From Spirochaetae bacterium HGW-Spirochaetae-5 (GTDB lineage: Bacteria > Spirochaetota > UBA4802 > UBA5550), in assembly GCA_002839285.1 (NCBI GenBank), contig PGXT01000056.1:1-33411 (forward strand): 33,411 bases of DNA. Reading direction: 5' to 3'. A program made the translations under genes and the position numbers. Under the pieces are notes generated by a model. That model was not told where the DNA came from and searched no databases. It worked only from the letters and a program-made list of their open reading frames with translations. This document shows positions 8,170-19,691 of the stretch, piece after piece. How positions within the stretch are numbered: position 1 is the first letter of the stretch; each line of letters opens with the position of its first letter.

Positions 8170-8486
8170 TTATTCCTCCTGTTTTTTGAGTTTGTGATGT
8201 GTTTGAAAGCCCCCCACCGGGGGGTTTGGGGGGCTGACCGTCGACCCGCTCCACCTGACAATCTCCGGATCAACTCCGCTCCTTCGGGCGATATCCGCAA
8301 GCTCTTCCATAAATGATTCCTCAATCAGCGGTGTTTTTTCAAACTCCCACACTTTATCAAGACGGATGTACTTATCTGCGCAGAGGTTGTTGAATGCACA
8401 AAGATCCCAACGTTTCACAACACCATCCGGAAGAGACGAAATAAATTTCCCGATCCCTTCAATATTCTCTTTCCGTGCAGCTCTTT
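8170..8486 (-). pseudogene. C-terminal fragment of the glycyl-radical activating enzyme, out of frame with its N-terminal part
   Basis: This frame reads AARKENIEGIGKFISSLPDG and then VVKRWDLCAFNNLCADKYIR, LDKVWEFEKTPLIEE and VDPEIVRWSG. That is the normal end of a GRE activase, including the final helices and the VRWSG strand end. It lies in a different frame from the N-terminal part (8415-9116), and the expected W-I-R-T-P-x-x-P-G-A-T stretch just before A-R-K-E-N is absent. After VRWSG the frame runs through a GC-rich hairpin, giving an unusual tail (SPPNPPVGGFQTHHKLKKQEE, split here as SPPNPPVGG plus the rest) before TAA at 8170-8172. A GTG at 8418 could be read as a start, but no ribosome site supports a separate gene. 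Confidence 0.75.
8208..8235 (-). repeat. GC-rich hairpin in the activase C-terminus
   Basis: AGCCCCCC (8208-8215) and GGGGGGCT (8228-8235) form an 8 bp perfect stem in an otherwise AT-rich region, with a GC-rich 12-base loop. On the minus strand TTTC follows. It may be an inserted intergenic-type repeat or a former terminator; the coding frame now runs through it. Confidence 0.55.
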
Positions 8487-9116
8487 TATATACTCACAAC
8501 ATCGCGTCAGATTATCCAGAATTCTTTCGTTACCGCTTCCGGTAAATTCTTTATGCAGTTTTGAATCTATCTCTTTCAGATCATACAAAACAAGATCCGC
8601 ATGGGAGAATATTTCATCAAAGACGGAGTCATTAAACAGACCGCATGTGTCCACTGCAGTATGGATCCCTTCAGCTTTCAGTTTTTTTAAAAGTCTGCCA
8701 ACAAATTTTGTCTGAAGCGTCCCCTCTCCGCCGGAAACAGTAATCCCCCCTGAAGATTTTTCAAAATATGCCCTGTCTTTTATAAGCTCTTCAAAAAGTT
8801 TATCGACCCCCCATTTTTTACCCAGCAGTTCAAGTGCAGTTGACGGACAATGCTCTGAACATATTCCGCATCCGGCGCAGAGATTTCTGTCTATCTTCAC
8901 TCCGCTTCCGCTGAGAGATAATGCTTTATGCGGACAAACTTTAACGCATGTACCGCAACCAATACACCGAACCCCAAGCCAGTGAATCTCGGGTAATGGT
9001 GAAATACTTTCGGGGTTATGACACCATCTGCATGACAGTGGACAACCCTTCATAAAGACCGTTGTACGTATACCGGGTCCATCCTCAGTGGACATCCTCT
9101 GTATCTCAAGGACCAC
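8415..9116 (-). pseudogene. Glycyl-radical enzyme activating enzyme (radical SAM), N-terminal part, disrupted
   Basis: This is a PflA-like activase that would generate the glycyl radical on the neighbouring enzyme using S-adenosylmethionine. The start is the GTG at 9116, three bases after the GRE stop. The SAM cluster motif is C25-x3-C29-x2-C32 (GCPLSCRWCHNP). An inserted ferredoxin-like pair of clusters follows, CIGCGTCVKVCP and CAGCGICSEHCP, found in activases of non-PFL glycyl radical enzymes. SGGITVSGGEGTLQ is the SAM-binding GGE region, and the DTCG and LYDLKEID motifs follow. After CCEYIKE the sequence loses about 20 expected residues and the frame, and stops at 8415-8417 with a short foreign tail. 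It is therefore probably non-functional as read, unless the gap is an assembly error. Confidence 0.8.
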
Positions 9117-9119
9117 CGC

Positions 9120-11636
9120 CTACATTCTGCTATGGCTCAGCCGGGCAATTACTTCATCCTGAAGCTCCCGCCCTATACCGGTGAAGTATGCATTATAACC
9201 GGTTATCCGCACAAGCAGATGCCTGTAATCCTCAGGGTGCTTCTGCGCGTCACGGAGCATCTCTGGATCAAGAATATTTATCTGCAGAGCTGTACCGCCA
9301 TTCTCAATGTAACCGCGGAGAAATGCTTTGAACTTCTCCCGATGTTCGGCACTCTTCATAATTGAAGGATTAAATGTAATTGTATGACTTGCACCATTTG
9401 GAAGAAGGTTAAGGTAGCCTTCGAATGAATCGGGACTTTTATCGGACTTACCTCCTAAAGCTTTACCAACTGAGTTTGAATTTGAAGTGGGACCGTTTAT
9501 ATCTGCACCGTTAGAGGGGCATATTGCGTTGGAAAGAAACTGTCCCCTTGCCCGGCCATCGGGACTCGCCGCCATTATATAACCATCCCCGGCCCAGTAG
9601 TTCCAACTGAGCATCCCCGGTCTGAACTGTCTCCCGGTAGAACGTGTTTTATACTTCCATGTCTCATCGGTCCAGAGCTTCATAACCCGTAGCGCCATGT
9701 CATCAGCTTCGTTGTCATCCCTTCCGTACTTGGGTGCTTTATTCTTTGCCATTGCCTGAAGTATATTATGATTCACCCAGTTATCTTTCAGAGCAGTAAT
9801 CAGCTCATCCATGGTGCAGAGCTTTTTATCATATACCAGATATTTAACTGCAAGAATTGAATCAACAGTAGTTGCATAAGTTACTGCTTCAATCGTCGCC
9901 ATGCTTATTTCGGCGCCGCCCCTTGTTACATCAACCCCCTTCTCTGCGCACCCCTTAACAAGACATGACAGATATGGAGTGGGGTGGAACTCCGCCCGGA
10001 TACTCTCGAACTGTTCATAAAGATCCGTTATCTTTTTTACTAAATATTTTGTCTGAATTTCATATGCTCTCCAGAACTCTTCGAATGTTTTAAACCTGCG
10101 CGGGTCACCAGTTGACGGACCATCCTGTTTAATCTTATCAGCCTTACCTGTTATAGGATCGATAAACTGATTCATGTCTTTTCCGCCGGTAAGTGCAAGC
10201 TCCACAGCTTTCAGGAGGTTGAGATTATTATCAACAGTTCCTGACCTGTCATTCCCCACCATTGTATTTTCAAGACAGCCCACGGGTGCATACTCCCATG
10301 CATTCTTTTCGTTTATCAGGTCCGTTATTCCAGCTCTTCTGCCTTCCAGTATCATTCCGGCTATAGATCTCTCGTCAAAATTCAGAAGAAATGGCGCACC
10401 CTGACTTCCGGAAATCATATCAACAACTTTATCAAGAAGTTCATCGGGAGTTTTTCTGTGAAGACGGACATTGGGCTTGGGCTCAAGAATCGGCGACATC
10501 TCATCGATCACTTCAAGAATTGCATATGTCAGGTCATTGGATAAATCCTCACCATCTGCACCGCACCCTGCAAGAGTGATGAGCTGACCGAAACCCGCAG
10601 TAATACCCTGATTACCTGTCCGTATCATTGAATCGTATGCGGTATTTGCATGCATCCAGAAGCAGCGGAGAATCTCCTTACCGAATTCTCTATCCATACC
10701 CTTTCTGATAGAATACTCCCAGTACGGAAAAAGATACTGATCCATCCTCCCGAAGGAGACACCCGGACCGGGATAGTTTTCATCACTCATAACAAGCATA
10801 TGATTCAGCCAGAGAGACTGTACCGCCTCATGAAAAGTAACCGGAGCTTCCCAGGGCACTCTTGAAAGAATATCCCCCATCTGAATCAATTCCTCTTTTC
10901 TCGACTTTTCCTGTTCACGCCCCGCCATAGTTCTGCAGAGATCAGCATATGCCGCCGCAAGATCACGGGGCATCTTTGAAGCAATAATCATCCCGCGGAG
11001 CTGGCCGCCTTTTTCACTCTTTTTCTCTTTATCTGAAAGATTATTATAACGTTCCGTAAGTTCTTTATGTATCCCCTTCCATCCGAGTTTCAGTGCTCTT
11101 TCATGACCTGGAATCAGATGACCGCTTGTTGCTCCTGAGTTACCGTAACCGTGATCATGAAATTTCTTCATCATCGCCCTTGATCCGCTTCTGCCATGTA
11201 CAAGTTTATGCCGGGCCTTTGCCTCTTTCTCTGTAAGGCAGTGCGATGTCATAATATTAAATCTCCCACCGGCAATAAGGTCTCCCGGCAGAATCTCCTT
11301 CGGCAGATATTTTACCATCACTTCACGGTTAAACCAGGCTCTCCGCTCAGGGAGAGTCCAGGTCCAGAAATCTTTGTGAAGGTCAACAGTTCTTGCAGAT
11401 AACCGGTATGAGGAGTATATAGTCTGCATCAATGCGTAGGTTTCCGGAACTATGTAGAATGTAAGCTCATTATACTGAGCATCCCATGGTGTCCCAGTTG
11501 ACCATGAAGTGGTCTCGTTGCTCCAGTTTCTAGATGCCCCTTTGAAATAATAATCTCTCAGCCATTTGATACGAGGGGTTAAACCCTCGGGCTCCCGGAT
11601 TTTGAACTCCTGTTTCAATGCAGATGATCCGCTCAT
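9120..11636 (-). CDS. Pyruvate formate-lyase-family glycyl radical enzyme, substrate unassigned
   Basis: This is an anaerobic, cytoplasmic radical enzyme of 838 residues, full length for the family. The thiyl-radical cysteine is C454 in YAPVGCLENTM; the C-x-E pattern with E456 is that of eliminases and decarboxylases rather than true PFL. The radical glycine is G813 in VRITGYNAYFTGIGRELQDE near the C-terminus. The N-terminal ~125 residues (with WSNETTSWSTGTPW and WTWTLPERRAWFN) are unlike the usual PFL/CutC start that I know. The substrate could be an aryl acid or another small molecule, but I cannot assign it. GGGGTG lies before the ATG. It is the second gene of a regulator-GRE-activase-flavoprotein operon. 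With the activase damaged, activity in this strain is doubtful. Confidence 0.9.
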   Translation of the reverse strand: MSGSSALKQEFKIREPEGLTPRIKWLRDYYFKGASRNWSNETTSWSTGTPWDAQYNELTFYIVPETYALMQTIYSSYRLSARTVDLHKDFWTWTLPERRAWFNREVMVKYLPKEILPGDLIAGGRFNIMTSHCLTEKEAKARHKLVHGRSGSRAMMKKFHDHGYGNSGATSGHLIPGHERALKLGWKGIHKELTERYNNLSDKEKKSEKGGQLRGMIIASKMPRDLAAAYADLCRTMAGREQEKSRKEELIQMGDILSRVPWEAPVTFHEAVQSLWLNHMLVMSDENYPGPGVSFGRMDQYLFPYWEYSIRKGMDREFGKEILRCFWMHANTAYDSMIRTGNQGITAGFGQLITLAGCGADGEDLSNDLTYAILEVIDEMSPILEPKPNVRLHRKTPDELLDKVVDMISGSQGAPFLLNFDERSIAGMILEGRRAGITDLINEKNAWEYAPVGCLENTMVGNDRSGTVDNNLNLLKAVELALTGGKDMNQFIDPITGKADKIKQDGPSTGDPRRFKTFEEFWRAYEIQTKYLVKKITDLYEQFESIRAEFHPTPYLSCLVKGCAEKGVDVTRGGAEISMATIEAVTYATTVDSILAVKYLVYDKKLCTMDELITALKDNWVNHNILQAMAKNKAPKYGRDDNEADDMALRVMKLWTDETWKYKTRSTGRQFRPGMLSWNYWAGDGYIMAASPDGRARGQFLSNAICPSNGADINGPTSNSNSVGKALGGKSDKSPDSFEGYLNLLPNGASHTITFNPSIMKSAEHREKFKAFLRGYIENGGTALQINILDPEMLRDAQKHPEDYRHLLVRITGYNAYFTGIGRELQDEVIARLSHSRM

Positions 11637-11664
11637 AGTTTCACCCCGTTGTACTTTTATGTTC

Positions 11665-12396
11665 TTACATTTTTTTTACAGATAATAATTTCTTAAGATG
11701 AGATTCCCCATGAGATATGATTTCATTCATTATCTTTACTGCACTTTTACTCTCTTTTTTTTCTATCGCTCTGAATAATTTTTCGTGCTGATTGAATACA
11801 AATTCAATTGTGGAACTATCAGCAAAAAACTCCCTTGTAAGATTTGTATAAACTTCTTTGAAGGAATTAAGCATAAGAGGATAAATCATGTTCCCCGATG
11901 CTATCGCTGTAAGCAGATGGAACTCAAAGTCCAGTGATACAATAAGTTCAATATCGGATCTGTCACCGATCTTCTCCTCATCAATGATAAATTTGAATTC
12001 TTTTAAATGCTCCGGAGTTCGATTAATCGCGGCAAGACCGGCCGTTTCTGTTTCGATCAGTATCCTCATTTTAAGCATGCTCTCGAGAATATCCGGGCCT
12101 GGTATCCCGCTTGAATAATCGACCAGTGAATTAAGCAGCGTAAGAGAGCCATTCCGCCTGTAATCGCTTACAAAAGTCCCGACTCTCGGTTTCATTTTCA
12201 CAAGTCCGCGGGCTTCAAGTTCAATAAGACCCTCATGCACAACAGATCTGCTTACACCAAGCTGCATGGCAAGTTCTCTTTCAGATAGAAGCTTCTCTCC
12301 GATAGATAATTTTTCTGAAAGAATAAGTTCTTCAAACCGGCGGATAAATATTTCGACGAGACTTTCAGTCTTCAGCGGCTTGAGTAATTCATGCAT
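11665..12396 (-). CDS. GntR-family transcription regulator, FadR/FCD subfamily
   Basis: This is a DNA-binding regulator of 243 residues. Residues about 10-78 form the winged helix-turn-helix (LLSERELAMQLGVSRSVVHEGLIELEARG, the typical GntR core, written here in one piece only as LSERELAMQLGVSRSVVHE). Residues about 100-235 form the all-helical FCD effector domain. Likely metal/effector ligands are D156 and H160 (DFEFH), H204 (NQHEKLF) and H229 (SHGES). FCD regulators sense organic acids or sugar acids and are usually repressors. It lies 28 bases upstream of the GRE on the same strand. A palindromic site sits 30-50 bases before its own ATG, so the whole operon is probably autoregulated and induced by its substrate. 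AAAGGA precedes the start. Confidence 0.88.
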   Translation of the reverse strand: MHELLKPLKTESLVEIFIRRFEELILSEKLSIGEKLLSERELAMQLGVSRSVVHEGLIELEARGLVKMKPRVGTFVSDYRRNGSLTLLNSLVDYSSGIPGPDILESMLKMRILIETETAGLAAINRTPEHLKEFKFIIDEEKIGDRSDIELIVSLDFEFHLLTAIASGNMIYPLMLNSFKEVYTNLTREFFADSSTIEFVFNQHEKLFRAIEKKESKSAVKIMNEIISHGESHLKKLLSVKKM

Positions 12397-14214: not shown

Positions 14215-15882
14215 ATGAAAATTAAAAAGCGTCAATTTTCAATTAAAATCTTCATATCCATGGCATTTAACATAATTGTAGTAACCACAGGTCTTCTCAT
14301 GTGCATATTTGTTTTTATTTATACCCGTGATGTTCTGCGAGGGAATCTCTACACACGTCTTAATGATCTGGTTTACACTATTTCAAAAAATATTGACGGA
14401 GATAAATTTGAAAAAATCGTATCTAAGGATGACCCGGTAAGTGTCGCTAACTATAAATCAATACAGACAAAACTTCAGGATATTCAGAAGAATACCACAA
14501 AAATATTTTATATCTACTCTATGAAACTCAACAGCAGCAATCAAAGCGTCTTTGCTGTCCCCACTGATGACGACAGAGGTTTTATGGGATGGCTTAACGT
14601 TCCATATCTTGAATTCCCTCAGGAAGCAATGAAACTTTACAAGGAAAATGGTATAGTAGTAATTGAATCTTTTATCGAAGATACTTATGGGACATGGGTT
14701 TCCGGTTATGCATCAATACTAAACTCTAAAGGAAAAATTGTCGGTGTAGTGGGCATAGACGTCTCCGCGGAAGATGTTATTAATTCAGAAATACGCTGCC
14801 TTGTTATTCTTATACTCATAACTTTAGCTATTGTTCTGGTTGTCATTTTTTTGGGTCATTATTTTTCAAAAATGATATCCAATCCGCTTATCCAGCTTCA
14901 GGATGAAATAGCAATGATTCAGAAATTTGAACTCGCAGATGTTATACCATCTGAAACAATATTTATAGAAATTTCAGATATGGAAAATGTTGTTGATAGA
15001 ACCAAAAAAGCTTTAAGATCATTCAAGCGTTATGTCCCGGCAGAGCTTGTTCATCAGATTGTTATTACAAAAAAAGAAGCAGTTCTAAGCGGAGATAAGA
15101 CTGAAGCTACTTTCATGTTTACAGATATTCAGAATTTTACAACTATAGCTGAATCCATGGAGATAGAAAAACTCTTTGATAAGCTAGGAAATTATTTCGA
15201 ATTAATGACTTCAAATATTCACTCAAATAACGGCACTGTTGATAAATATATAGGTGATGCCATTATGGCTTTCTGGGGTGCCCCTAATTACATCGAAAAT
15301 CATGCAGGACTTGCATGTATCTCGGCTCTTCAGTGTTCAGATCTCCTCAAAACTTTAAACGCCGAATTAAAGAATCACAACTTCCCACCTCTTAACACAC
15401 GTTTCGGAATTCATACAGGACATGCGATTATCGGGAATATGGGATATTCCGAAAGACTTAACTATACAGCAATCGGCGATACAGTCAATCTGGCAAGCAG
15501 ACTCGAAGGTATAAATAAATTTTATGACACAAATATTATAATAAGTAATGATACCTATAATCTGGTTAAGAATGATTTCATTACAAGGCATCTGGATAAA
15601 ATAATTGTTAAAGGTAAAACAAACTGGATAGCAATTCATGAGCTTATAGGAAAAAAAGGTGAAACGGAAAAATCAATTCTGGAGTTTTCTGAAATTTATA
15701 ATTCAGCAGTTAATCTGTTTTATAAAAGGGAATGGAAAAAGGCAATATCAGCTTTTGAAGACGCGCTCAGAATTAAACCTGACGACAGACAAACCAAAAG
15801 AATGATCTCTCACTGTAGAAAATACATTCAAACACCTCCATCTGACAGATGGGAAGGTATTGCCAAGCTTAATTCAAAATAA
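14215..15882 (+). CDS. Membrane-bound class III adenylate cyclase with Cache sensor and TPR
   Basis: This 555-residue sensor enzyme makes cAMP from ATP. Its layout is: membrane helix (about 15-36); extracytoplasmic Cache-like domain (about 45-190, with VSGYASILNSKGKIVGVVGIDV, the typical second Cache strand pair, broken here as GKIVGVVGIDV); second helix (about 194-216); HAMP-like linker; cyclase domain (about 290-478); two TPR-like helices (about 487-535). Metal ligands are D304 (MFTDIQNFT) and D348 (YIGDAIMAFWG). K344 and T418 (NYTAIGDTVN) point to ATP as substrate. N425 and R429 (NLASRLEG) are the transition-state residues. All key residues are present, so it should be active. AAGGA precedes the ATG. 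It is convergent with the GNAT gene, with a three-base gap. Confidence 0.92.
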   Translation: MKIKKRQFSIKIFISMAFNIIVVTTGLLMCIFVFIYTRDVLRGNLYTRLNDLVYTISKNIDGDKFEKIVSKDDPVSVANYKSIQTKLQDIQKNTTKIFYIYSMKLNSSNQSVFAVPTDDDRGFMGWLNVPYLEFPQEAMKLYKENGIVVIESFIEDTYGTWVSGYASILNSKGKIVGVVGIDVSAEDVINSEIRCLVILILITLAIVLVVIFLGHYFSKMISNPLIQLQDEIAMIQKFELADVIPSETIFIEISDMENVVDRTKKALRSFKRYVPAELVHQIVITKKEAVLSGDKTEATFMFTDIQNFTTIAESMEIEKLFDKLGNYFELMTSNIHSNNGTVDKYIGDAIMAFWGAPNYIENHAGLACISALQCSDLLKTLNAELKNHNFPPLNTRFGIHTGHAIIGNMGYSERLNYTAIGDTVNLASRLEGINKFYDTNIIISNDTYNLVKNDFITRHLDKIIVKGKTNWIAIHELIGKKGETEKSILEFSEIYNSAVNLFYKREWKKAISAFEDALRIKPDDRQTKRMISHCRKYIQTPPSDRWEGIAKLNSK

Positions 15883-15885
15883 CTT

Positions 15886-16392
15886 TTATGCTTCAGTTCT
15901 GATATAATACCACAGGGTACTCTCCCCCTTGTGGTAATACTCAGGGAAGTTTCCGACAAGTGTAAATCCCATTTTAACAAGAAGATTTCTCATAGCTATA
16001 TATTCAGGTTTATCTGATGTATCAACAATCAGAAATCTCCCTTCGTTTGATTTTACAAATTCTACCGCAATAGCAATAAGACTCTTCCCTATACCATGAT
16101 GCCTGAAACTCTCATCAACTGCAATAAAAGATATACAATAACCTGAAGTTTTATGCTCTGTCTCTTTAACTCCAACAGCAGCAATAATGTCCCCCTTCTT
16201 ATTACTGGAATACCAGTACTTAATATCCCTGCTCCGGAGACTCATGAATGGTTCCCGATATATCTGCTCCCTTTCTCCAGGGGTTAAAACTGCATCGAAG
16301 GCCCTTCCGGAGAGAAAAAAAGTAATCAGCTTCTCTACGTCCTCCGTTGTTTTAACTTCTGTATAAACAAATTTAGTTTCTATCTGGTTCAT
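15886..16392 (-). CDS. GNAT-family N-acetyltransferase
   Basis: This is a cytoplasmic protein of 168 residues with the GCN5-related acetyltransferase fold. The acetyl-CoA pyrophosphate-binding loop is RHHGIGKSLI, following strand ISFIAVDESF. The family's later LLVKMGFTLVGNFPEYY stretch (helix plus beta7) is also present. The substrate is unknown. Its ATG overlaps the stop of the large MFS fusion gene (ATGA), and GGGGAG lies just upstream inside that gene, so the two are translationally coupled. That linkage suggests a joint role, for example modifying the transported molecule, but this is inference. Confidence 0.85.
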   Translation of the reverse strand: MNQIETKFVYTEVKTTEDVEKLITFFLSGRAFDAVLTPGEREQIYREPFMSLRSRDIKYWYSSNKKGDIIAAVGVKETEHKTSGYCISFIAVDESFRHHGIGKSLIAIAVEFVKSNEGRFLIVDTSDKPEYIAMRNLLVKMGFTLVGNFPEYYHKGESTLWYYIRTEA

Positions 16393-19364
16393 TTCTTCTC
16401 CCCTGCCAAAGATCCATTTTTGGTACCCAAAACAAAAATAAATAATAACGCGGTCATACCGGTTATCATTATAATCATCCCCTGATTATAGCCCGAAACA
16501 AAAAGATAACCCATCAGAACAGGACCGATCATCTGCCCGATATTACCGATAAAATTAAGGTACCCGACACTCTTATTATATCCAATATCCGCTGAAGCTT
16601 TCTGATCTATCAGATAATCGTTACTCATGGGGAGTCCGAAACTATCCCCTATGCCTACAAACAATACTATAATTACCGCTGTTATAACTGACGGTTTAAT
16701 TCCAAAAAGAATAAGGCCCATTAATGTAACAGCCATATATAATACCATGGACCATTTACCTCTCAGAAAATCTCTTTTGGAGAGATACCGTACAATCGCC
16801 GGGCCAAGATATATAATAACCAGACTGTTCATCATAAACACCCGGCTTATATCACCTGCCGAGATATTCTGTCCCTCGGCAAAAACAGGAAACATATAAG
16901 TCAGAAACATACTGCATATTGAAACCGGAATAAATGCAGTGAAGAAAAAAAGAAAAATATTCCGGTTAGTGAAGAACTTCATAATGTCTATAAAGGAAAC
17001 TCTCTTCTCCTCTACAAGGTTGTGGGTTCTTCTGTTTTTCATTAAGTACAATGCATAGAGTAATGCTGCAACTGAAACGAATACAGATATCATATAGACA
17101 CTCGAAAATCCGATGTAGTCAGCGCTGAGTCCGCCTATAGCAACACCGCAGCAGTATCCGGCATTCAAGCCGGAATTCTGTGAGGCAAGGCCGCTGTTCC
17201 TTACAGTTACGTCCGGTGAAATCATCGGATAACACTGAAGTGTAACCAGAGCAAAACCATATGCCGTACCGACAAATGTTCTCGCTATTGTAAAAGCATA
17301 TGGATTATTGATATAATATGCAATGAGTGAACCAATCCCCATACAGACTGCTCCAATTAGAAACGGGAATTTCCATCCCCTTTTATCTGTCCAGTTCCCT
17401 GCAAAAACTGCGAACACAGCCGTTGCCAGCATCTCCGCTGAGATGGGAATTGCCATTGCAATTGTCTCGGGGAGATTAAAGAGCGTAATCCCGGAAGTGG
17501 CAAGTATCTCTTTCATCATCAAAGGAGTATATGAAACAGGGAGCGCGTATGAAAAGGCTATGATAAATGCCAGCATCCTGACAATTTCAACTGAATATTT
17601 ACCAAAAGGATTCTCTTTGCTTTCATTCTTATTTATAAAAACATTCCGGAGTATAGTAACTTCAATCATAATAAGAACAAGAATTATTAAAACTGTAACA
17701 ATCTCCTTATTTATATTTGTTATAAATTCCTGAATCTTCACCTCAAATGAATTCAGATCCTTACCCACTTCCAGAAATCCGGCAATTTCACCCTTTGAGT
17801 TATATATAGGTCCAAGAGAATAGATCCATGATCCATATATATCATTCTCTTCGACACTTTTGATTTCACCTTTATCTATTACATCAGCAAAGGGGCTATC
17901 TTTATAATTATCCTTATAAGGGAAGTTTACACCTGAACTGTCATCGAAGAACATCAGCACATATATTTTATTGTTTTTTAAAGTATAAATTCCGCCGTAA
18001 TAATCGGCATTCCATTCATCAGCATTATCATTAAACATACTGTGAAGCTGAGACCTTAACTTGATATAATCCTTACTCATAAAATCTTCACGGTCGTTGA
18101 CTTTACTTATAAGGTCCCCTTCAATATATCTGTTTGAAAGCTGATTTATATGCTTAAGATTACTGAATACATTCTCTTTATAAATACCGGTAAGAGTGGA
18201 GACTGCAATCTTAAGAACAATAATTGTAGTTATAAGAACAGCCGTAATTATCATTGCCGACTGAACAGTAACTTCCGATAATTTCTTTTTGAAAATATAA
18301 ATATATATCCATGCTGCTAAAAAAACTATACTCAGAAAAAATAGAATACCGCTTAAAAATATTAACAATCTTGTCGCAATTATAAATATCGAATAGCGCT
18401 TCCCTTCAGATTCAATTTTAATATTCCCGGCAAAATCACCCTCTATAATTGAAGCATCAGTTACAGCTGAAAAATTATCGCCGTTAATTTTAAAATTTCT
18501 GATAATATCCGAAGAGTCTTCTGATAAAGAATATGTATATCCTCCGTAAGCATTCTTATCCATTTTTACAATTTTTCTAAATCCCACGTCAGAGAAAAAA
18601 ACAGATTTGCCGTTTACAGCAATCTGCCATGGAATTGATAATTCATTTTTAACAACAGGGCGCGAGCTTGAATATATCTCTTTAAATCTAAGACCATTTT
18701 CACTGATGAAAATCTGACCTTTTTTTGTTATGTAGGCAATGGTAGAGAGGTTTGGTATAAAATCGCAATCCACTATGTTAAGTTTAGGATTATCCATAAC
18801 TATTGTTTTAAGGATAGAGTTTGTGCCGTCTGAAATATTAATCGAACCTAACTGAATTCTAACGGAGTCATTATAAAAATAGAAAATCCTGTCATTGCTG
18901 AAGGTTATCCTTCTATAATTCCCTTCCATGTCCGGCATTTCATCTTCTTTATACAAATGTGAAAATACATTTTTAACAAAATCTCCGTTTGAATTAAACA
19001 TCTTGATATTTTCTTTTACAATTTTCAATCCCGAGTCATCTGTCGCATAATCAAGCAGATAAAAATTTCCTGCTGTATCATTTACAATATCCCATGCTCT
19101 GAAAAAGCTTTCCGGCTTATCCGAATTACCCTCCAGAATATACTCAACTGTATTATCTTTCCTGATTTTAGCAATTTTCTTCAAAGAATTAAAGATTATA
19201 AATCTATTTCCGTTCAAATCAGTGGAAATCCGGGCGGCGCTTTCAAGTTCCAGACGAACATTAAGAGGATTTGAAAAAACGATCTCCTGGTTTTTATAAC
19301 CTGTAAAACCGAAAATCAGAAGCGATAATAAAATAAGAAGCAGATATTTTTTAGATTTCAGCAT
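16389..19364 (-). CDS. Sensor-transporter fusion: propeller-like domain, Cache-like sensor and MFS transporter
   Basis: This is a ~991-residue inner-membrane protein. The start is the ATG at 19364 (GGAA about 9 bases upstream); a TTG at 19406 would add 14 residues. After an N-terminal hydrophobic segment (about 1-23) comes a ~300-residue, strand-rich extracytoplasmic region with repeated GNRFIIF, GNFYLLDY, GKSVFFSDVG units, resembling NHL/beta-propeller blades. A membrane helix (about 327-358) and another (370-391) follow, then a Cache-like domain (about 392-550, ending SLGPIYNSKGEIAGFLEVGK). A helix (554-576) leads to a 12-span MFS domain (about 594-985) with the loop motif GNWTDKRGWKFP. MFS proteins are normally about 400 residues. 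The substrate is unknown; the sensor part could gate transport. It is coupled to a GNAT gene. Confidence 0.8.
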   Translation of the reverse strand: MLKSKKYLLLILLSLLIFGFTGYKNQEIVFSNPLNVRLELESAARISTDLNGNRFIIFNSLKKIAKIRKDNTVEYILEGNSDKPESFFRAWDIVNDTAGNFYLLDYATDDSGLKIVKENIKMFNSNGDFVKNVFSHLYKEDEMPDMEGNYRRITFSNDRIFYFYNDSVRIQLGSINISDGTNSILKTIVMDNPKLNIVDCDFIPNLSTIAYITKKGQIFISENGLRFKEIYSSSRPVVKNELSIPWQIAVNGKSVFFSDVGFRKIVKMDKNAYGGYTYSLSEDSSDIIRNFKINGDNFSAVTDASIIEGDFAGNIKIESEGKRYSIFIIATRLLIFLSGILFFLSIVFLAAWIYIYIFKKKLSEVTVQSAMIITAVLITTIIVLKIAVSTLTGIYKENVFSNLKHINQLSNRYIEGDLISKVNDREDFMSKDYIKLRSQLHSMFNDNADEWNADYYGGIYTLKNNKIYVLMFFDDSSGVNFPYKDNYKDSPFADVIDKGEIKSVEENDIYGSWIYSLGPIYNSKGEIAGFLEVGKDLNSFEVKIQEFITNINKEIVTVLIILVLIMIEVTILRNVFINKNESKENPFGKYSVEIVRMLAFIIAFSYALPVSYTPLMMKEILATSGITLFNLPETIAMAIPISAEMLATAVFAVFAGNWTDKRGWKFPFLIGAVCMGIGSLIAYYINNPYAFTIARTFVGTAYGFALVTLQCYPMISPDVTVRNSGLASQNSGLNAGYCCGVAIGGLSADYIGFSSVYMISVFVSVAALLYALYLMKNRRTHNLVEEKRVSFIDIMKFFTNRNIFLFFFTAFIPVSICSMFLTYMFPVFAEGQNISAGDISRVFMMNSLVIIYLGPAIVRYLSKRDFLRGKWSMVLYMAVTLMGLILFGIKPSVITAVIIVLFVGIGDSFGLPMSNDYLIDQKASADIGYNKSVGYLNFIGNIGQMIGPVLMGYLFVSGYNQGMIIMITGMTALLFIFVLGTKNGSLAGEKK

Positions 19365-19691
19365 TTTAACATTCCGGGATATTTTATTTTTAAACTGTTT
19401 ACTCAATAATAAGCTTACTGTACAAATTAATATTTAAAAAAAATGATCAGTTCTAAAAACTCTATACTAATATAAATGTTTTTTCAATTAAAAAATAGTA
19501 ATTATATAAAAATGTCAGTATTTATTACTTTGCACTTTGTAAGCAGATTAAACACCACCCTTTCATCTGGTAGCAAATTATTTTCGGGGGTGCGTATGCT
19601 CAGCATACGCCTGGAGAGGGGGATTATTCTTCTTGATTATAAACCCGCTAAAAAAGTAGTATTAACAAAAATTTATACTGAAGGTTTACCG
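19365..19691. other. Divergent intergenic region between the MFS fusion and tatD
   Basis: This 327-base stretch holds copy 2 of the 39 bp repeat (19572-19610). On the minus strand, TTGAAA (19482-19487) with TATAGA (19461-19466) 15 bases on could be the MFS promoter, although the spacing is short. The frame of tatD stays open through much of it, but without a ribosome site or conserved residues. I see no gene. Confidence 0.55.
19572..19610. repeat. 39 bp repeat with perfect palindrome, copy 2
   Basis: This is 37/39 identical to 13972-14010. It ends in GCGTATGCT-C-AGCATACGC (19592-19610), a perfect 9 bp inverted repeat around one base. It lies about 80 bases ahead of the tatD start. Confidence 0.7.

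Follow-up and report, generated by a model that had tools for sequence, protein, structure and literature searches.

Transporter-like proteins can serve the detection of signals, as in UhpC with UhpB and in CbrA, and a transferase of the LPG_synthase_C type works with a membrane flippase in MprF, which combines lysylphosphatidylglycerol (LPG) synthase and flippase. Yeast Snf3 and Rgt2 also tie a transporter-like fold to signal detection (PMC12740885). Among extracellular bacterial sensors, Cache domains form the largest group. The outputs given in a reference survey comprise chemotaxis proteins, kinases, cyclases and diesterases, phosphatases, transcription factors and ion channels; the word 'transporter' is absent from the text of that survey (PMC4822843). 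Here we analyse a gene of Spirochaetae bacterium HGW-Spirochaetae-5 that joins an extracytoplasmic propeller–Cache sensor to a major facilitator superfamily (MFS) domain, and that lies in a 33,411-nt stretch of contig PGXT01000056.1 (the whole stretch is referred to as the window). Since many spirochaetes and gut Clostridia have retained the fusion, as a rule near genes for signalling enzymes, Cache–MFS fusions constitute a real family, apparently undescribed within the literature searched (full-text queries for the Cache–MFS combination, covering open-access papers, returned nothing relevant).

Architecture of the fusion protein

The fusion gene and its parts are as follows (residue numbers refer to the 991-aa window protein).

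16389–19364, minus strand: sensor–MFS fusion gene, 991 aa, ATG at 19364 (open reading frame, Pfam, AlphaFold2)
19293–19361, minus strand: N-terminal membrane helix or signal anchor, residues 2–24 (AlphaFold2 helix and hydropathy)
18390–19274, minus strand: NHL-type beta-propeller, residues 31–325, predicted outside (AlphaFold2 strands 37–324; Foldseek match to Trim71 NHL, 8j72)
18180–18389, minus strand: helical hairpin, residues 326–395 (AlphaFold2 and hydropathy)
17709–18179, minus strand: Cache domain, residues 396–552, predicted outside (AlphaFold2 of the excised domain; Foldseek)
17634–17708, minus strand: last sensor membrane helix, residues 553–577 (AlphaFold2 and hydropathy)
17661–17663, minus strand: codon of the invariant Glu568 (E568), within the last sensor membrane helix (alignment)
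17577–17579, minus strand: codon of the invariant Arg596 (R596), at the start of MFS helix 1 (alignment)
16401–17600, minus strand: MFS domain, 12 membrane helices, residues 589–988 (Pfam MFS_1, AlphaFold2 and Foldseek)

The frame runs from 19364 to 16389 on the minus strand with no internal stops (a TTG at 19406 is a possible alternative start that would add 14 aa), and the gene is single-copy in its genome. Chance or frameshift read-through was ruled out because the fusion is conserved, with a single stop-free frame here and the same domain order in 46 copies. In the full-chain AlphaFold2 model (mean predicted local distance difference test score (pLDDT) of 82.3, from an alignment with 15 homologues), an N-terminal membrane helix is followed by the propeller (strands 37–324), the hairpin, the Cache-like domain (approximately 396–552), a long membrane-entering helix and the 12 helices of the MFS domain. 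The hairpin consists of two membrane helices, of which the second continues into the N-terminal helix of the Cache domain. The predicted topology places the N terminus inside, the propeller and Cache domain outside on either side of the hairpin and, after the last sensor helix, the N terminus of the MFS domain inside, so that the MFS loops are oriented as usual, and this fits both hydropathy and loop charges.

The original prediction, made from the DNA letters alone, had described a chain of approximately 991 residues with a propeller-like region, a Cache-like domain and a full 12-span MFS domain. AlphaFold2 models and Foldseek matches to solved counterparts of all three domains bear this out, and the sensor boundaries given at the time (30–325 and 392–550) agree well with the models; its layout left the strand unstated and missed both the N-terminal membrane helix and the hairpin between propeller and Cache domain.

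Folds were predicted because Pfam alone is insufficient for assigning the Cache domain and the propeller. The profile searches that had been suggested for the sensor regions gave a weak, sub-threshold Cache signal (sCache_3_3, E = 0.01 for the full chain; E = 0.0014 and 19.4 bits against a cut-off of 28.8 for the excised domain), and the Pfam NHL repeat profile did not match the window protein (a single homologue matched, at E = 0.0094). The excised Cache region was modelled confidently (pLDDT 84.9), and Foldseek matched it to the sensor domains of CitA, WalK, Tlp3, KinD and a formate-binding chemoreceptor (8py0), in line with the predicted Cache fold. Assignment to the Cache superfamily (sCache_3 type) is based on this modelled fold and on the predicted position outside, between membrane helices, rather than on Pfam. 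The propeller model resembles the NHL domain of Trim71 (8j72; Foldseek against PDB, E = 2.0e-8, TM-score of 0.66 on the target), as expected of an NHL-type beta-propeller.

The MFS domain was the one part that Pfam recognized: MFS_1 matched residues 598–920 (E = 2.5e-27; 96.1 bits against a cut-off of 33.4) and was found in all seven spirochaete homologues scanned. Its structural counterparts in PDB, according to Foldseek, are NorA, VMAT and MdfA; NorA was also the best PDB match by sequence (E = 6.2e-14). Identity as a drug-efflux pump of the DHA1 type or of a named efflux family was considered and rejected (Bcr/CflA, 20.1 bits against a cut-off of 200.9; coupling acids of NorA not matched).

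Distribution and origin of the family

We assembled a set of 46 full-length fusions, some of them closely related to one another, from Spirochaetota and gut Clostridia (Bacillota); in genome contigs, an alignment-based query detected fusions and a single-sequence query found nothing. The closest relatives of the window fusion belong to Spirochaetota metagenome genomes, and the same domain order is present in Intestinimonas butyriciproducens and in Bacillota genomes labelled Gemmiger, Blautia, Lachnospiraceae and Oscillospiraceae. Positive genomes amounted to 23 of 348 in the Lachnospiraceae (2 of these with a short relative alone), 11 of 391 drawn from the class (a few short relatives included) and 3 of 87 in the Intestinimonas family. 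The original prediction had considered that the two parts might turn out to be separate, unrelated genes in homologues. Such cases were not seen, the same order being found in two phyla; in 296 Spirochaetota and approximately 800 clostridial genomes, we found no homologue in which the two parts are encoded separately, and strong matches were either fusions or sensors with other outputs. We also found 11 shorter, distant Cache–MFS proteins that have no propeller.

The propeller–hairpin–Cache unit (positions 1–590 of the family profile) is itself shared with other outputs. Neighbouring genes of several spirochaetes continue from it into HAMP and a class III cyclase, and elsewhere in Spirochaetota it leads into cyclases or, once, into a SpoIIE phosphatase. 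When 56 sensors were placed in a tree by their Cache regions, the 42 that are fused to an MFS domain fell on one side of a branch (SH-aLRT 98), and one change of output was counted, compared with 12.7 in shuffles. The trees were built quickly by maximum likelihood, with no bootstrap, and contain some long-branched rows. This topology is consistent with a single origin of the MFS-fused sensor, followed by inheritance and transfer between phyla.

An invariant pair at the sensor–transporter junction

E568 and R596 are invariant in 46 of 46 fusions (as first seen in an alignment of 42), which are related copies and so do not represent 46 independent observations. E568 is located after about 15 mostly hydrophobic residues of the last sensor helix and is the sole invariant position of that helix. 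In 15 homologous sensors with a cyclase, SpoIIE or no output, Glu was never found at this position, which was occupied by A, T, L, I, F, V or G. Both residues are kept in 10 of the 11 short Cache–MFS proteins (in the exception, L067, both are changed, E to I and R to K), and by-eye comparison with four stand-alone MFS proteins and NorA apparently revealed no Arg at the position of R596. This conservation pattern suggests that the pair is a physical latch between sensor and transporter that is important for coupling, and we infer that the two residues may form a salt bridge.

A purely structural fusion, which would assist folding, membrane localization or partner docking while the sensor had no effect on transport, might accommodate the variable stretch between E568 and R596 (26 to 135 residues). 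A plain tether would nonetheless need no invariant buried charge, and the fusion persists in both phyla, its MFS-type sensor having apparently arisen once. We consider this explanation very improbable.

Genes next to the fusion

Two genes of the window lie downstream of the fusion gene.

15886–16392, minus strand: GNAT acetyltransferase gene, 168 aa (Pfam Acetyltransf_1, E = 3.7e-8)
14215–15882, plus strand: sensor with a Cache-like region and a class III adenylate/guanylate cyclase, 555 aa, convergent (Pfam Guanylate_cyc, E = 2.7e-23)

The ATG of the acetyltransferase gene overlaps the TGA of the fusion (ATGA at 16389–16392). The coupling to an acetyltransferase that had been noted from the sequence is real and recurs across loci: a GNAT, LPG_synthase_C or formyl-transferase-like gene was found within 3.5 kb, the limit used for neighbourhoods, in 30 of 46 loci. 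The cyclase gene, the Cache-like region of which was read by eye, is approximately 0.5 kb from the fusion and is a possible partner of it; the genome encodes 10 class III cyclase domains, this one included.

Signalling neighbours, scored with catalytic-domain profiles for SpoIIE and cyclases, were equally frequent (30 of 46 loci). At least one of the two neighbour classes was present at 41 of 46 loci, nearly always on the same strand, with frequent overlaps; the 5 loci with neither include two that end at contig ends (L031 and L116). In 25 clostridial genomes, which encode 1–4 SpoIIE domains each, SpoIIE adjoins the fusion in 14 (0.18 expected) and LPG_synthase_C in 12 (0.09 expected), values that are a guide only since the expectations assume independent genomes, which these are not. 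RsbW-like kinase genes occur at some fusion loci. In seven spirochaete genomes (G015, G016, G017, G023, G024, G050 and G210), the adjacent same-strand cyclase carries the same propeller–Cache ectodomain as the fusion.

These neighbours could also be read as the output of the fusion. The MFS domain would then be a receptor rather than a pump, forming a transceptor that binds a compound and signals to the adjacent Cache-bearing cyclase or SpoIIE phosphatase, perhaps by pairing of ectodomains; both the share of loci with a signalling neighbour and the seven genomes with a matching ectodomain favour this. About one-third of the loci, however, have no such neighbour within 3.5 kb.

A further alternative is suggested by genes for binding proteins. 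The ectodomain could be a tethered device that captures substrate and hands it to the MFS domain, in the manner of a substrate-binding protein, instead of a regulator: a short Cache–MFS gene (L064) adjoins an ABC_sub_bind gene, the MFS of L125 is fused to an ABC_sub_bind-like domain and a Bmp-type binding protein adjoins the fusion in L122. Yet the propeller–Cache unit has cyclases and a SpoIIE phosphatase among its outputs as well, for which capture would be senseless, and E568, as a membrane residue, points to mechanical coupling. Substrate capture appears quite unlikely to us.

Several loci showed additional features. A PF00551 formyl-transferase-like gene follows the pair of sensor–MFS and sensor–cyclase genes in four spirochaetes (L029:11803-12972, L030, L075 and L076). 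Propeller-less Cache–MFS genes are clustered with a D-Ala-D-Ala ligase-like gene (L064:438-8385, L065, L066 and L067; L124:5770-11208; L147:593-5969); the L064 cluster additionally contains an alanine racemase-like gene and the ABC_sub_bind gene, and those of L124 and L147 contain SpoIIE and RsbW-like kinase genes. The 1147-aa protein at L125:7011-10454 has N-terminal sensor-like regions, MFS and the C-terminal ABC_sub_bind-like domain (just under the cut-off), representing a binding protein fused to MFS. Export genes of the NHLP/NHLM type for ribosomally synthesized and post-translationally modified peptides (HlyD-like, peptidase-ABC and ABC) lie upstream of sensor–MFS genes (L105:1259-6624, also L113, L114, L035, L037, L043 and L126) in some Lachnospiraceae and, in more divergent form, in Oscillospiraceae; two of the L105 genes exceed their NCBIfam cut-offs. 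A family of 370–470-aa proteins is encoded directly upstream of the fusion, at position −1, in L062, L063, L115, L117, L119, L120 and L121, and was matched by Pfam in none of three members scanned and by NCBIfam in none of two. Cyclase-like sensors are found at L042:3164-4864, L041:3337-5031 and L149:6252-9134, and those of L042 and L149 are possible pseudo-cyclases, as the metal-binding Asp motif FSDI looks degenerate by eye. Upstream of the sensor–MFS operon, L041:394-3320 and L042:268-3159 contain genes for an 800-aa repeat protein (MORN-like by eye) and DUF4280 (PAAR-like).

Transport or signal reception

Transport by the window protein is plausible by homology: it has GNWTDKRGWK as motif A, between helices 2 and 3, and has preserved R695 and D907, and the MFS part is the best conserved region of the family (mean Jensen–Shannon score of 0.412). 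Both points argue against a receptor that does not transport. Such a receptor is nevertheless the main rival explanation, because the canonical coupling residues vary across the family, and we regard it as a real possibility, if a somewhat unlikely one. For the family as a whole, a transport function is putative.

We give an even chance to the explanation that we prefer, in which the window protein is a sensor-gated MFS permease within a small signalling module. By analogy with the closest solved MFS structures and sequences, which are those of exporters such as NorA, it is likelier to be an exporter than an importer. A ligand would bind to the Cache domain and/or the propeller, and the C-terminal helix of the Cache domain would then shift the last sensor helix; the contact between E568 and R596 would change, permitting or blocking the conformational cycle of the MFS domain. 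More tentatively, the transported compound may be related to the product of the adjacent transferase, and the adjacent cyclase or phosphatase may report the same signal inside the cell. The original prediction had tentatively read the output of the sensor as a transporter, implying ligand-gated transport or a transceptor. The Cache fold and the conserved fusion that it had named as support were both found, and its acetyltransferase link holds; the functional part, still conjectural, is strengthened by the invariance of the E568/R596 pair.

Several observations weigh against a gated permease. Pfam scores for the Cache domain and NHL repeats are under curated cut-offs or absent, the contact between E568 and R596 is deduced from position and conservation, and the stretch that separates the two residues varies in length, as given above. 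Residues typical of MFS pumps also vary among 42 fusions: position 660 (the acid of motif A) holds D/E in 17, position 695 (the Arg of motif B) holds R in 6 and position 907 (the acid of helix 10) holds D/E in 25. All acids within the MFS helices are less than 80% conserved, and E222 and D307 of NorA are unmatched by conserved acids in the family.

A broader proposal, which we consider unlikely as a whole, is that the family represents a new class of receptor with transport as the output of a propeller–Cache sensor. The membrane carboxylate of E568 would latch to R596 and gate or join the MFS cycle, and the protein, together with a GNAT/LPG-type transferase and a Cache-bearing cyclase or SpoIIE phosphatase, would form a circuit by which spirochaetes and gut Clostridia make, export and sense a small signal between cells.

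With a conserved Cache–MFS family, the outputs of Cache domains would extend to direct control of transport, with neither a kinase nor gene expression in between, and the two invariant residues allow the coupling of sensor and transporter to be tested with point mutants. The family occurs fairly often in gut Lachnospiraceae, and its substrate could be a compound exchanged among gut bacteria or with the host.

Other features of the window

The region 8415–12396 encodes a glycyl radical enzyme resembling pyruvate formate-lyase, along with a radical SAM activase and a regulator of the FadR type. A perfect 9-bp inverted repeat (GCGTATGCT-C-AGCATACGC) is located at 19592–19610, between the fusion gene and a divergent TatD gene; an Rfam search of the window identified no RNA and no match at this repeat. 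Promoter-like sites in the window were not more frequent than in shuffles.

Comparison with known systems

The fusion combines known modules in a conserved arrangement that is unreported within the literature searched and that carries a specific coupling signature. We know of no sensor-transporter or transceptor in which an extracytoplasmic propeller–Cache unit precedes an MFS domain. In UhpC/UhpB, CbrA and Snf3/Rgt2, the transporter-like part itself detects or is fused to a kinase. MprF is comparable in that many fusions adjoin a PF09924 gene, but its membrane part is not MFS and it has no Cache domain; a lipid substrate for the fusion is only a guess from this analogy. DHA1-type exporters (NorA, MdfA and VMAT) share the 12-span fold of the MFS part, whereas the coupling acids of NorA are not conserved in the fusions, which score far under the NCBIfam efflux cut-offs. 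The adjacent Spirochaetota paralogues, propeller–Cache–HAMP class III cyclases, have the propeller, hairpin and Cache domain in common with the fusion and differ in that HAMP and cyclase replace the MFS domain and in having no Glu at 568. Like Cache receptors of the sCache type such as CitA, WalK and chemoreceptors (PMC4822843), the window protein has a tethered extracytoplasmic Cache domain whose N-terminal helix is long and whose C-terminal helix runs into the membrane; unlike theirs, its output is a full MFS domain.

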